Source: Bacteroidales bacterium | GTDB taxonomy: Bacteria > Bacteroidota > Bacteroidia > Bacteroidales > UBA932 | Assembly (NCBI GenBank): GCA_017439305.1 | Contig: JAFSJK010000088.1 | Coordinates: 52,219-116,218, forward strand | Direction: 5' to 3' | DNA: 64,000 bases | In this document: piece by piece, positions 59,369 through 64,000 of the stretch | Position numbering within the stretch: position 1 is the stretch's first letter | How the letters are laid out: each line of letters opens with the position of its first letter | Notes under the pieces: model-generated | Told to the model about the DNA's origin: nothing | The model's database searches: none | The model's input: the letters and a program-made list of their open reading frames with translations, nothing else | Translations under genes and position numbers: made by a program

Positions 59369-60133
59369 ATGAGAATTATTCTGTTGCAGACGGCTCCGGA
59401 GTGGGGGAATCCTGCCCAGAGCCGGGAAGATGCCCGCCGGATGCTGATGGGCTCCCGGGCGGACCTTGTCGTCCTCCCCGAAATGTTTTCCACGGGTTTC
59501 GTGACGGAGCCCGAAGGCGTCGCCGAAAGTGAGGAAGGCGACAGCCTCCGCTGGATGCAGGAATATGCAAGGAACAAGGGCTGCGCCGTTGCGGGCAGCG
59601 TGTCCGTCCTGACGGGGAAAGGGTATCGCAACCGCTTCTATTTCGTTTTCCCGGACGGGCATTACCAGTATTATGACAAGCATCACCTTTTTACCTATGC
59701 GGGTGAAGACAACCATTACAAGGCTGGTGATGAACGGGTGATCGTGGAATATGCCGGTTTCCGGATTCTCCTGCAGGTCTGTTACGACCTGCGTTTTCCC
59801 GTCTTCGCCCGGAACCGGCTGGTCGAGGGCAAGCCGGATTACGACCTGATCCTGTATGTGGCCAGCTGGCCGCAGCAGCGCATCGATGCCTGGGACGCCC
59901 TCCTGAAGGCCCGTGCCATCGAGAACGTATGCTTCGTGGCGGGGGTGAACCGGGTCGGAAAGGACCCCGGCAACCTCTATTCCGGACATACCAGTTTGTA
60001 CGGTCCCCGCGGAGAATTGCTTTCAATTTGTAAGGAAGGACGTATTGACATTATCGAATTCGAACTCAAACACGCCCTTTTGGATCAATTCCGTGAATCC
60101 TTCCCGGCCCTTCGGGATGCTGATAATCAATAA
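59369..60133 (+). CDS. Nitrilase-family amidohydrolase (omega-amidase-like)
   Basis: The 254-residue protein has the Glu-Lys-Cys triad of the nitrilase superfamily: glutamate in VVLPEMFSTGF (near residue 38), lysine in YYDKHHLFTYAGE and cysteine in LLQVCYDLRFPVF. The pattern FSTGF plus KHHLF is that of the YafV/omega-amidase group, which hydrolyses 2-oxoglutaramate and 2-oxosuccinamate in metabolite repair. A TATCTTCG -7-like element lies just upstream. Confidence 0.9.
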   Translation: MRIILLQTAPEWGNPAQSREDARRMLMGSRADLVVLPEMFSTGFVTEPEGVAESEEGDSLRWMQEYARNKGCAVAGSVSVLTGKGYRNRFYFVFPDGHYQYYDKHHLFTYAGEDNHYKAGDERVIVEYAGFRILLQVCYDLRFPVFARNRLVEGKPDYDLILYVASWPQQRIDAWDALLKARAIENVCFVAGVNRVGKDPGNLYSGHTSLYGPRGELLSICKEGRIDIIEFELKHALLDQFRESFPALRDADNQ

Positions 60134-60149
60134 TTTTTCCAAGTTTTTC

Positions 60150-60180
60150 TTGTTTTTTAAAAACTAAATCGCCATATTTG
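60150..60180 (+). promoter_or_regulatory. Promoter of the ilv leader and operon
   Basis: TTG (60150-60152), 20 bases, then CATATTTG (60173-60180), one mismatch from TAnnTTTG. The leader peptide starts 25 bases downstream, and the next plausible promoter is not found before ilvD. Confidence 0.55.
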
Positions 60181-60205
60181 CTTTCGGTTACGATTTAGTA
60201 GTGAA

Positions 60206-60256
60206 ATGAACAACGTACTCGTCATCGTCCTCGCCCTTATTATCCTTGCCTGTTAA
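60206..60256 (+). CDS. ilvL: Branched-chain amino acid leader peptide
   Basis: A 16-codon frame reads MNNVLVIVLALIILAC and stops with TAA. Ten of the sixteen residues are valine, leucine or isoleucine, the end products of the operon that follows. It sits between the promoter and a rho-independent terminator, 88 bases before ilvD, the classic arrangement of transcription attenuation: when charged branched-chain tRNAs are scarce the ribosome stalls and termination is avoided. It was found by reading the gap, as it is too short for ordinary gene calling. A small hydrophobic membrane peptide cannot be excluded. Confidence 0.7.
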   Translation: MNNVLVIVLALIILAC

Positions 60257-60297
60257 AGGCGCGGACAGGAAAGGCATGACGGTCGAATATAAACCTC

Positions 60298-60334
60298 AAC
60301 CCCTTCTTGGTCCGCACCGGGAAGGGGTTTTTTT
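60298..60334 (+). terminator. Attenuator terminator of the ilv operon
   Basis: AACCCCTTC (60298-60306) pairs perfectly with GAAGGGGTT (60321-60329), followed by T to 60334, 10 bases before the ilvD start. GCGGAC at 60261-60266 can instead pair with GTCCGC at 60310-60315 in the terminator loop, with AAGG (60271 region) facing CCTT of the left arm, giving a possible antiterminator. Confidence 0.75.
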
Positions 60335-60344
60335 ATAGTAGTGT

Positions 60345-62183
60345 ATGAAGCATCCTTTTAGAAGCAGCGTTACCTTCAAGGGTCGCCGGATGGCCGGAGC
60401 CCGGGCACTTTGGACGGCGGCGGGAATGACGCCCGACCAGGTGGGAAAACCCGTCATCGCCGTCGTGAATTCCTTTACGCAGTTCGTTCCGGGCCATACC
60501 CATCTCCATGAGGCCGGCCAGCTCGTCAAGGCTGAAATCGCCCGTCTGGGCTGCTACGCGGCCGAATTCAACACCATCGCCGTGGACGACGGAATCGCCA
60601 TGGGACACGACGGGATGCTGTACTCCCTTCCTTCCCGGGAAGTCATTGCCGACAGCGTCGAGTACATGGTCAATGCGCACAAGGCCGATGCGATGGTGTG
60701 CATCAGCAACTGTGACAAGATCACGCCCGGCATGCTGATGGCGGCCATGCGGCTGAACATCCCCACGGTTTTCGTATCCGGCGGTCCGATGGAAGCCGGT
60801 GTCCTGGGAAACCGGAAACTGGACCTGATCGACGCGATGGTCCAGTCGGCCGACACCTCCCTTTCTGATGAGGAAATCGCGCAGGTGGAAGCCTCCTCGT
60901 GCCCGGGTTGCGGCTGCTGCTCCGGCATGTTCACGGCCAATTCGATGAACTGTCTCACCGAAGCCATCGGCCTCGCCCTGCCCGGCAATGGGACGGTCGT
61001 GGCGACGCACCGGAACCGGACGGAACTCTTCCGGAAAGCCGCGGCCCTCATCGTTGAGAATGCCTGGAAATACTACCGGGACGGTGATGAGCGGGTCTTG
61101 CCCCGTTCCATCGCTTCCCGGCCCGCTTTTTTGAATGCGATGTCGCTGGACATCGCGATGGGCGGCTCCACCAATACGGTCCTGCATTTGCTGGCCGTAG
61201 CGCAGGAAGCCGGCGTTGACTTTACGATGGAGGACATTGATGTCCTTTCCCGCAAAGTCCCCTGCATCTGCAAGGTGGCGCCCAATACCGCCCAATTTCA
61301 CGTCGAGGACGTGAACCGCGCCGGCGGCGTGGTCTCGATCCTGAGGGAACTGGCCGTTACAGGCCTCGTCGACACTACCCTTTACCGGGTGGACGGGATG
61401 ACCCTCGGGGAGGAGATCGAACGCTATGCCATCCTGTCGGAAGGGGTGACGGACGAAGCCCTGAACCTCTTCCGCAGCGCTCCGGCGGGGCGTTTCAGCA
61501 CGCAGATGGGTTCGCAGGAAACCTATTATGACGCATTGGATACCGACCGGGAGAAAGGCTGTATCCGCAGTGTTTCCAGCGCCTATACCCAGGATGGCGG
61601 CCTGGCCGTGCTGAAGGGCAACATCGCCCTGGACGGCTGCGTCGTCAAGACCGCCGGCGTGGATCCTTCCATCTGGAAATTCAAGGGTCCGGCCCGGGTC
61701 TTCGACTCCCAGGAAGCGGCCTGCGACGGCATCCTGGGCGGAAAGGTCCGCAGCGGAGACGTCGTGGTCATCGCTTATGAAGGCCCTGCCGGCGGCCCGG
61801 GAATGCAGGAAATGCTGTATCCCACCTCGTATCTCAAGTCGGTCCATCTGGGCAAGGAATGCGCCCTCCTTACCGACGGCCGTTTCAGCGGCGGCACCTC
61901 CGGGCTCAGTATCGGCCACATCTCCCCGGAAGCGGCCGCCGGCGGAACCATCGCCCTGGTCCGGGACGGCGACCCTATCGAGATTGACATTCCGGCCCGT
62001 TCCATCCGGGTCCTTCTCTCCGAGGCGGAACTGGACCGGCGCAGGAAAGAAGAGGAAGCCCGTGGCCCCAAGGCCTTTACGCCGCCGCACCGGCTCCGGA
62101 CGGTCTCCAAGAGCCTGCGCTCTTACGCCCGGATGGTCAGTTCCGCCGACAAGGGAGCGGTCCGGATCCTTCCGGAACAGTAA
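60345..62183 (+). CDS. ilvD: Dihydroxy-acid dehydratase
   Basis: IlvD dehydrates dihydroxy-isovalerate and dihydroxy-methylvalerate to the keto acids of valine and isoleucine. The 612 residues have the iron-sulfur cysteines in [11 protein letters not shown] and [21 protein letters not shown], then [27 protein letters not shown] and SPEAAAGG near the C-terminus. Length is standard for the E. coli-type enzyme. It is the first structural gene after the leader and attenuator. Confidence 0.97.
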
Positions 62184-62212: not shown

Positions 62213-63916
62213 ATGATGACAGGATCGGAAGCACTGTGGTGTTCCCTCATCGAGGAGGGAGTGGATACCGTTTTCGGGTATCCGGGCGGGCAGATCATGC
62301 CCGTCTACGACAGTCTGTACAGTTATAAGGACCGCGTCCGCCATATCCTGGTGCGGCACGAGCAGGGAGCCATCCACGCGGCGCAGGGCTATGCCCGTGT
62401 GAAGGGCGATCCCGGCGTGGTGATCGTCACCTCCGGTCCCGGCGCGACAAACGTCATCACCGGCGTCCACGATGCCATGACGGACTCCACCCCGGTGGTG
62501 GTCATCACCGGCCAGGTTTCGTCCGCCGCCCTGGGCACGGACGCCTTCCAGGAAGCCGACGTCATCGGCCTCACAGGCCCTATCAGCAAATGGAACTATC
62601 AGATCCGCTCGGCGGACGAGGTGGCGTGGGCCGTCGCCCGGGCTTTCTACATCGCCCGGAGCGGCCGTCCAGGCCCCGTGGTTCTGGACTTCACCAAGGA
62701 TGCGCAGGTGGGCCTGACAGACTTCAAGTACGAAAAATGCAATTTTATCCGGAGCTACGTCCCCGACCCGAAGGTCTCTGAAGTGTCTCTGAACAAGGCA
62801 GTCGCCTTATTGAACGAGGCCGAGCGTCCCTTCGTCGTGTTCGGCCAGGGCGTTGTTCTGGGCCACGCGGAGGAGGAGCTCAAGGAATTCCTTCTCAAGG
62901 GCGACATTCCTGCGGGATCCACCCTTCTGGGCCTGAGCGCCCTGCCTTCCGACTTCCCGCTTTATCGCGGGATGATCGGAATGCACGGCAACGTGGCCCC
63001 GAACATCCTGACGAACACCTGCGACGTGCTGGTGGCCGTCGGCATGCGGTTCGACGACCGCGTCACCGGGACGGTATCCACCTACGCCCGCCAGGCGAAG
63101 GTCATCCACATCGATATCGACACCTCCGAGATCGGGAAGATCATTCCCGTCGAGGTGGGCCTCCGCGGTGATGCCAAGAAGGTTCTCAAGGTCCTGACGG
63201 AGCGGATGAAGGAACGCAAGCACCCTGCGTGGAACAAGAGTGTCGAGCGCTGCGACGCCGTGGAGAAGGAAAAGGTCATCGACCCGGAAGTGCACCCCGC
63301 TTCCGGCATGCTCAGGATGGGTGAGGTGGTGGACCGCGTGGTCCGGGCTTCCGCCGAGAAGGCCGTCGTGGTGACGGACGTGGGCCAGAACCAGATGATG
63401 GGCGCCCGCTATTCCCGTTTCACGCGCTCCCGCAGCTTCATCTCCTCCGGCGGTCTTGGTACGATGGGCTTCGGCCTGCCAGCCGCCATCGGCGCCAAGG
63501 TGGCCGAGCCGGGACGCCCCGTGTGCTGCTTCGTTGGCGACGGCGGCATTCAGATGACGATGCAGGAATTCGGTACCATAATGCAGGAGCAGGTGGGCGT
63601 CAAGATCGTCCTCCTGAACAACAACTGGCTGGGCAATGTCCGTCAGTGGCAGGAACTCTTCTTCGGCTGCCGTTATTCTGAAACCCGGATGCTGAATCCC
63701 GACTATGCGATGATCGCCCGCGCCTATGGCATCCCGTGCGTCACCGTGGAAAAGCGGGAGGAACTGGATGCGGCCCTAAAGGCGATGTTCGCCGACGACA
63801 AGCCTTTCCTGCTGGACGTCCACGTCCTGGAAGAGGGGATGGTGATGCCGATGGTGCCGCCCGGCAAGGGCATCCACCAGATTATGATCACGGAAAACGA
63901 ATGGTACAATGGATAG
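62213..63916 (+). CDS. ilvB: Acetolactate synthase large subunit
   Basis: IlvB condenses pyruvate with pyruvate or 2-oxobutyrate using thiamine diphosphate. The 567 residues open with the PYR domain (VDTVFGYPGGQIMPVYD, and the catalytic glutamate in VRHEQGAIHAAQGYARV). The central domain has FDDRVTG, and the C-terminal TPP domain has FVGDGGIQMTMQEFGT and NNNWLGNVRQWQELFF. It starts 29 bases after ilvD and overlaps the regulatory subunit gene by 8 bases. Confidence 0.97.
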   Translation: MMTGSEALWCSLIEEGVDTVFGYPGGQIMPVYDSLYSYKDRVRHILVRHEQGAIHAAQGYARVKGDPGVVIVTSGPGATNVITGVHDAMTDSTPVVVITGQVSSAALGTDAFQEADVIGLTGPISKWNYQIRSADEVAWAVARAFYIARSGRPGPVVLDFTKDAQVGLTDFKYEKCNFIRSYVPDPKVSEVSLNKAVALLNEAERPFVVFGQGVVLGHAEEELKEFLLKGDIPAGSTLLGLSALPSDFPLYRGMIGMHGNVAPNILTNTCDVLVAVGMRFDDRVTGTVSTYARQAKVIHIDIDTSEIGKIIPVEVGLRGDAKKVLKVLTERMKERKHPAWNKSVERCDAVEKEKVIDPEVHPASGMLRMGEVVDRVVRASAEKAVVVTDVGQNQMMGARYSRFTRSRSFISSGGLGTMGFGLPAAIGAKVAEPGRPVCCFVGDGGIQMTMQEFGTIMQEQVGVKIVLLNNNWLGNVRQWQELFFGCRYSETRMLNPDYAMIARAYGIPCVTVEKREELDAALKAMFADDKPFLLDVHVLEEGMVMPMVPPGKGIHQIMITENEWYNG

Positions 63917-64000
63917 CGAAGTGAAAGAATACACGGTGACCATCTACACCGAGAACCAGATCGGCCTCCTGGCGCAGATCACGAACGTGTTCACGCGCCA
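63909..64000 (+). CDS. ilvN: Acetolactate synthase small (regulatory) subunit, partial
   Basis: The last 92 bases begin a protein reading MDSEVKEYTVTIYTENQIGL, then LAQITNVFTR, cut by the window edge. This is the start of an ACT domain as in IlvN/IlvH, which mediates valine feedback. The ATG overlaps the end of ilvB by 8 bases, the usual coupling of the two subunits. Confidence 0.9.
   Translation, partial: MDSEVKEYTVTIYTENQIGLLAQITNVFTR

Follow-up and report, generated by a model that had tools for sequence, protein, structure and literature searches.

The leader region upstream of ilvD

The stretch of DNA analysed here, which we call the window, comprises 64,000 nucleotides of a Bacteroidales genome, and towards its end, between an amidohydrolase-like gene and the branched-chain amino acid genes ilvD and ilvB, it holds the following features:

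59369 to 60133, forward strand: upstream amidohydrolase-like gene (PRK10438, 238.5 bits, just below the cut-off of 249)
60150 to 60180, forward strand: candidate Bacteroides-type promoter, with TTG at 60150-60152, a 20-nt spacer and CATATTTG at 60173-60180
60206 to 60256, forward strand: leader peptide MNNVLVIVLALIILAC of 16 residues, ten of them Val, Leu or Ile (V/L/I), from ATG 60206 to the stop codon TAA 60254-60256
60258 to 60274, forward strand: segment 2, the 5' strand of the antiterminator (from fold energy, covariation and the swap test)
60298 to 60329, forward strand: intrinsic terminator hairpin, segments 3 and 4 paired (14 pairs, -21.9 kcal/mol, z -4.4)
60301 to 60318, forward strand: segment 3, the 3' strand of the antiterminator, overlapping the terminator 5' arm and loop
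60328 to 60334, forward strand: U-run of the terminator (seven T), the predicted end of a short transcript
60345 to 62183, forward strand: ilvD, dihydroxy-acid dehydratase, the first gene under the proposed control (PRK12448 at 1041 bits and TIGR00110 at 774 bits, over their cut-offs)
62213 to 63916, forward strand: ilvB, acetolactate synthase large subunit (TIGR00118 at 667 bits, over its cut-off)

The original prediction spoke of an ilvDBN operon, of which the window holds ilvD and ilvB but, as base 64000 is also the last of the contig, no ilvN; the ilvN match is found instead on another contig of the same genome, which ends with matches to ilvN, ilvC, leuA, leuC, leuD, leuB and ilvE and to a LeuA paralogue. 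In the nearest relative (IlvD 89% identical), ilvN, leuA and the leuA paralogue lie downstream of ilvD on the same contig, with frames sized like ilvC, leuC, leuD and leuB among them and the ilvB frame masked by a longer opposite frame. This gene order on one contig makes it likely that a single operon serves all three branched-chain amino acids and has been split by the assembly in the window genome. The LeuA paralogue of the leu operon (L267:2928-4451, G000:C14) has (R)-citramalate synthase CimA as its best family, at 622.8 bits against a cut-off of 950, which suggests a route to isoleucine via citramalate. The ketol-acid reductoisomerase of the window genome is of the short form (349 aa, L267:7922-8968), and that of another same-order genome is of the long form (492 aa, PRK05225, L269:3755-5230).

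The short frame before ilvD had been proposed as a 16-residue leader with ten Val/Leu/Ile codons, and this description was confirmed: among the 1529 frames with a length of 12-40 codons, counted on both strands over the whole window, the one at 60206-60256 is alone in having at least 60% V/L/I, and it is also the sole site found in the window where a frame with at least 45% of these residues has a stable terminator within 90 nt downstream. Its ten regulatory codons lie between 60215 and 60247, Leu 14 being the last of them. The predicted terminator with its U-run stands, though with 14 pairs and not the 9 first given to it. Its arms, 60298-60311 and 60316-60329, enclose a CCGC loop, and although a plain consensus scan for terminator-like sites found 1 against 1.1 expected by chance, the hairpin is exceptionally stable, none of 200 shuffles equalling it. 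A competing pairing had been suspected between 60261-60266 and 60310-60315, and it turned out to be the core of a longer antiterminator, as the region 60256-60320 folds at -25.4 kcal/mol (z -3.7) with 60258-60274 paired to 60301-60318. This antiterminator takes in most of the terminator 5' arm, and the two helices are therefore mutually exclusive. The window's own pairing of segments 2 and 3 reaches a z of just -2.3 against its shuffled 75-nt region.

Upstream of the peptide, CATATTTG carries five of the six specified bases of TAnnTTTG, an imperfect match to what we take, together with an upstream TTG, to be the Bacteroides promoter motif; with its TTG 20 nt upstream, this candidate would place a transcription start near 60187. 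A sigma-70 promoter scan gave no site.

Relatives and other amino acid operons

The comparison drew on ilvD loci from 61 related genomes including the window's own, of which 26 had a match, and from the best 80 of 596 stretches in named genomes; the fragments L028-L030 were dropped before counting, leaving 107 loci. A V/L/I-rich frame followed by a terminator was found upstream of ilvD in 57 of the 107, the window included. By origin, the layout was present in 24 of the 27 same-order loci from the related-genome set (the window being one of them), in 33 of the 58 named Bacteroidota loci (Bacteroides, Phocaeicola, Odoribacter, Alistipes, Paludibacter and others) and in none of the 22 records labelled as other phyla. 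It appeared in 14 of 1070 dinucleotide-shuffled controls and in 6 of the 383 regions that precede other large open frames, these being mechanically called frames of at least 150 codons. A first detector had found 53 of the 107 and was widened for interrupted T-runs, with changed frame criteria, to give the 57, and both controls used the final version. Among the 57, L071 and L096 were judged doubtful and L055 repeats the leader of L017; L055 was left out of the segment-pairing tests (56 loci), and all three were omitted from the promoter, stop-position, codon-choice and mask-model tests (54 leaders).

Four of four further same-order genomes also carry the layout. A search with the window IlvD at E 1e-150 among 159 class genomes matched 5, its own included and all of them from the same order, and a TIGR00110 search matched 18 of 80 genomes; only 2 of the 17 ilvD matches outside the order (L252 and L253) have a V/L/I leader with terminator, from which the layout directly before ilvD looks occasional outside Bacteroidales. 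The 50 misses include six loci with fewer than 230 bases upstream of ilvD, three of these being among the 22 other-phyla records, and two, L062 (truncated where its contig stops) and L100, where the layout is visible by eye. Seven of the ten records titled Prevotella or Prevotellaceae had no match, the missed L058 having only 195 bases upstream and the doubtful L071 being one of the three matches. At the same-genus ilvD loci L006, L007 and L008 neither leader peptide nor attenuator was detected, and there the attenuator has been lost or was never acquired; L007 has a large opposite-strand frame directly upstream of ilvD and therefore a different neighbourhood. An ilvD-ilvB fusion suspected in L007 proved absent on inspection.

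Two loci have two units of leader frame plus terminator in tandem upstream of ilvD, namely L091:2646-2790 and 2801-2945 (Labilibaculum) and L100:1573-1710 and 1728-1860 (an Odoribacteraceae MAG), the first frame of the latter being poorer in V/L/I codons.

The two helices were examined both leader against leader and column by column. Averaged over the 56 leaders, the pairing of segment 3 with the upstream 75 nt of its own leader has -17.1 kcal/mol, against -12.5 with those of other leaders, and none of 5000 permutations reached the observed total; the own upstream region was the best of all 56 in 10 leaders, where 1 is expected, and segment 3 pairing had a z below -2 against shuffles in 43 of the 56. 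A de novo MAFFT alignment was built from 38 of the 54 leaders, the other 16 being omitted by choice on account of a long or uncertain segment 2. Over the 9 pairs of the terminator, 97.4% of cells are paired and 31 are changed on both sides, with a covariation score of 0.384 against 0.208 when shuffled; over the 10 pairs of the antiterminator, 85.4% of cells are paired and 20 are changed on both sides, with a score of 0.230 against 0.147, and in neither case did any of 500 shuffles reach the score. Slid controls were lower in paired cells and in covariation score for both helices. Less striking is the number of antiterminator pairs with two-sided change, a count attained in 34 of 500 shuffles and matched by one slid version. 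Peptide and hairpin are thus kept at 57 of the 107 ilvD loci, the window included, and both alternative stems covary; the original prediction had named conservation of this kind as support for attenuation.

The full TAnnTTTG motif with TTG 18-22 nt upstream occurs in 42 of the 54 leaders, searched from -120 to +30 nt around the called peptide start and counted with no shuffled control, and a looser criterion is found in all 54, a figure that says almost nothing, given the width of the range searched. Codon choice in the 54 leaders, in counts uncorrected for base composition, departs from that in ilvD, with ATT for 115 of 164 Ile (39% in ilvD), GTC for 105 of 210 Val (21%) and CTA for 32 of 190 Leu (3%), CTT also being favoured; this bias may tune the sensitivity to tRNA charging or reflect the composition of the untranslated region.

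The same terminator and frame finder was applied to other amino acid operons, at 22 of 24 hisG, 17 of 30 leuA, 22 of 30 thrA, 13 of 16 trpE and 23 of 25 pheA loci, the remaining ones being fragmentary or truncated loci, weak matches or members of other subfamilies. Leaders with at least four His precede hisG at 19 of 22 loci, among them MNINNKHHHHLVFGR in the window's own genome, with four His; WWW is found before trpE at 5 of 13; at least seven Phe/Tyr are found before pheA at 13 of 23, and the own-genome pheA leader is the Phe/Tyr-rich MRFYGFDFIYSYYQNR; and leaders rich in V/L/I precede leuA at 6 of 17, by eye from the table. As background, 449 upstream regions gave four His in 6, WWW in none and seven Phe/Tyr in 2. 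A convincing Thr/Ile leader was found at none of the 22 thrA loci, a trpE-type match was not found in the own genome, and the own-genome leuA sits inside the operon. In these sequences, leader codon content tracks the pathway product for ilv, leu, his, trp and phe. All five genomes with both an ilvD and a leuA leader have more Val in the former (6, 5, 6, 4 and 3 against 0, 2, 2, 1 and 1), and such counts, few as they are, would fit a leu operon that serves Leu and, via the CimA-like enzyme, Ile, but not Val.

Ribosome position and rival explanations

We are highly confident that transcription of the branched-chain amino acid operon is controlled at this locus by ribosome-mediated attenuation. 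The original prediction had claimed that all parts of such a device are present and in order, and this holds, with the peptide, the exclusive helices, the layout conserved at 57 of the 107 loci and the covariation all supported by sequence comparison; the start site, the translation of the leader and the response to amino acids are what we infer from these parts. Transcription would start near 60187, and the leader peptide would be translated. When Val-, Leu- or Ile-tRNA is scarce, the ribosome would stall on one of the ten V/L/I codons at 60215-60247, leaving segment 2 (60258-60274) free to pair with segment 3 (60301-60318), and this would block the terminator and let RNA polymerase continue through ilvD, ilvB and the genes behind them in the operon. 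When the amino acids are plentiful, the ribosome would reach the stop codon at 60254 and cover segment 2, segment 3 would pair with segment 4, and termination in the U-run at 60328-60334 would release an RNA of about 150 nt. Very probably, then, the genes of the ilv operon are on only when Val, Leu or Ile run short.

The dependence on ribosome position was computed with a model in which the ribosome masks the stretch from -18 to +12 nt relative to the start of the A-site codon and transcripts are folded as they are released by the polymerase. For the window, with the RNA 3' end at 60316, the modelled antiterminator probability is about 0.9 for stalls at codons 2-15, so that a stall at Leu 14, the last regulatory codon, is still compatible with the antiterminator, and it falls to 0.45 at codon 16 and, once the ribosome sits on the stop codon, to 0.01. 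When the RNA is full-length, the terminator prevails at every stall position except codons 10 and 11, and the decision must therefore be co-transcriptional, as in the standard model. Over the 54 leaders, the terminator 5' arm is sequestered at 0.80 with the ribosome stalled at the best codon, at 0.31 with the ribosome on the stop and at 0.67 ribosome-free, and in 51 of the 54 the value for the best stall is higher than that for the stop by over 0.1. When the stall position is held fixed, sequestration falls by 0.47 on moving the ribosome to the stop, compared with 0.02 in shuffles, and the fall is greater than 0.2 in 49 of 54 leaders against 27 of 216 shuffles. Absolute values of this model are not to be trusted, since among six E. 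coli controls it told stall and stop apart well for trp and thr and weakly for leu and ilvG, but could not do so for his and ilvB. In the model, the leaders have the expected geometry, in which a stall would free the antiterminator strand and a ribosome at the stop would block it.

Since the amidohydrolase-like gene (59369-60133) shares the strand of the hairpin, with 164 nt between the two, the hairpin could simply be the terminator of that gene, the V/L/I frame being incidental. We consider this extremely improbable, given that the same layout recurs before ilvD at 57 of the 107 loci, that the conserved antiterminator covaries with the terminator arm, and that the promoter candidate lies between that gene and the peptide. 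Terminator/antiterminator switches are also employed, as is generally known, by metabolite riboswitches, T-boxes and RNA-binding proteins, any of which could control this terminator without the peptide acting as sensor. At the gathering score, however, Rfam gave two tRNAs only in the window, with no T-box or known riboswitch match, and no match and no leader family in 12 related loci; only 41 nt separate the stop codon from the terminator in the window; and in the ilv, leu, his, trp and phe leaders the codon content follows the pathway, all of which leaves such control very unlikely.

A function of the small peptide in its own right, for example at the membrane, with the V/L/I residues there for hydrophobicity, would agree with the strongly hydrophobic product of the frame and with the LHIIRVVVV-like core common to the leaders of Bacteroides and Phocaeicola. 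We give this reading hardly any credence, because the frames before hisG, trpE and pheA carry runs of His, Trp and Phe/Tyr instead, and because the ilvD leader peptides, compared by eye, vary widely between families apart from their V/L/I content.

Leader design and known attenuators

The stop codon lies between -15 and +25 nt relative to the start of the antiterminator strand in 51 of the 54 leaders, and in the ilvD leaders it is often the TGA of TGAGAAAGG. When folded ribosome-free in the partition model, 42 of the 54 Bacteroidota leaders prefer the antiterminator, in contrast to the E. coli trp, thr and leu leaders with values of 0.05-0.26, though the contrast with E. coli is tentative, since his, ilvB and ilvG reach 0.54-0.79. 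A test for a 1:2 protector duplex gave a mean z of -0.34, with values below -2 in 3 of the 54 leaders; the same test was blank on the six E. coli leaders, and is therefore powerless and no evidence of absence. From these features a possible design difference emerges, with the stop in or beside the antiterminator strand and no evident protector hairpin. We tentatively extend it to a general attenuation regulon of Bacteroidales (ilv, leu, his, trp and phe) with a three-segment design, in which the antiterminator strand would incorporate the stop codon and the terminating ribosome would therefore be the off-switch, the protector hairpin would be absent, and read-through would be the default of an untranslated leader, the reverse of what holds for E. 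coli trp; as a whole, this proposal is plausible, if somewhat more likely to be wrong than right.

Bacteroidales are an order common in the gut, and it is very probable from the comparisons above that a classic gene-control mechanism governs amino acid synthesis in many of its members. A simple annotation rule follows, by which runs of V/L/I, His, Trp or Phe/Tyr are sought before a terminator, and the leaders offer testable constructs for culturable Bacteroides and possible amino-acid-responsive parts for engineering commensals.

Earlier literature touches on this subject at several points. The abstract of Vitreschak et al. 2004 reportedly names attenuation candidates in Bacteroidetes/Chlorobi. 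Among the matches listed from the openly licensed PMC literature, titles and abstract openings mention no ilv attenuator in Bacteroidales. In B. thetaiotaomicron, short frames in long 5' untranslated regions are reminiscent of such leaders, with no ilv- word in the main text of that article (PMC7366714); leader genes have been counted in Bacteroidetes among other groups, without ilv in the available part of that source (PMC4833913); and the words attenuat- and leader peptide are absent from the available text of a paper on amino acid synthesis in gut bacteria (PMC9026213). Close to our case is Flavobacterium psychrophilum, of the same phylum, where transcriptome mapping gave strong clues for leader-peptide attenuation, with a leader peptide and a structured 5' region before amino acid operons as in the window (PMC9723704). 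To the remark in the original prediction that its author was aware of no well-characterised ilv example in Bacteroidota, it must be added that attenuation had already been inferred in that flavobacterium, but the available portion of the study names neither ilv nor any other operon or sequence, whereas here an ilv, leu, his, trp and phe set is described in Bacteroidales, with covariation for ilv (PMC9723704).

Outside Proteobacteria, the Corynebacterium ilvBNC and trp attenuators, as presented in the accessible parts of three articles, likewise combine a leader peptide containing product codons with alternative hairpins (PMC11857589, PMC10272879, PMC1262725), though in a different phylum, the Actinobacteria. 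The E. coli ilvGMEDA, ilvBN, leu, thr, trp and his attenuators share with the window a short frame enriched in product codons, a stop, and a terminator with a competing antiterminator, and the 41 nt from stop to terminator in the window fall within the 17-58 nt of the E. coli leaders. Attenuation as a mechanism is therefore textbook knowledge and had been inferred in a flavobacterium; what is new here is its breadth in Bacteroidales, together with a possible difference in design.
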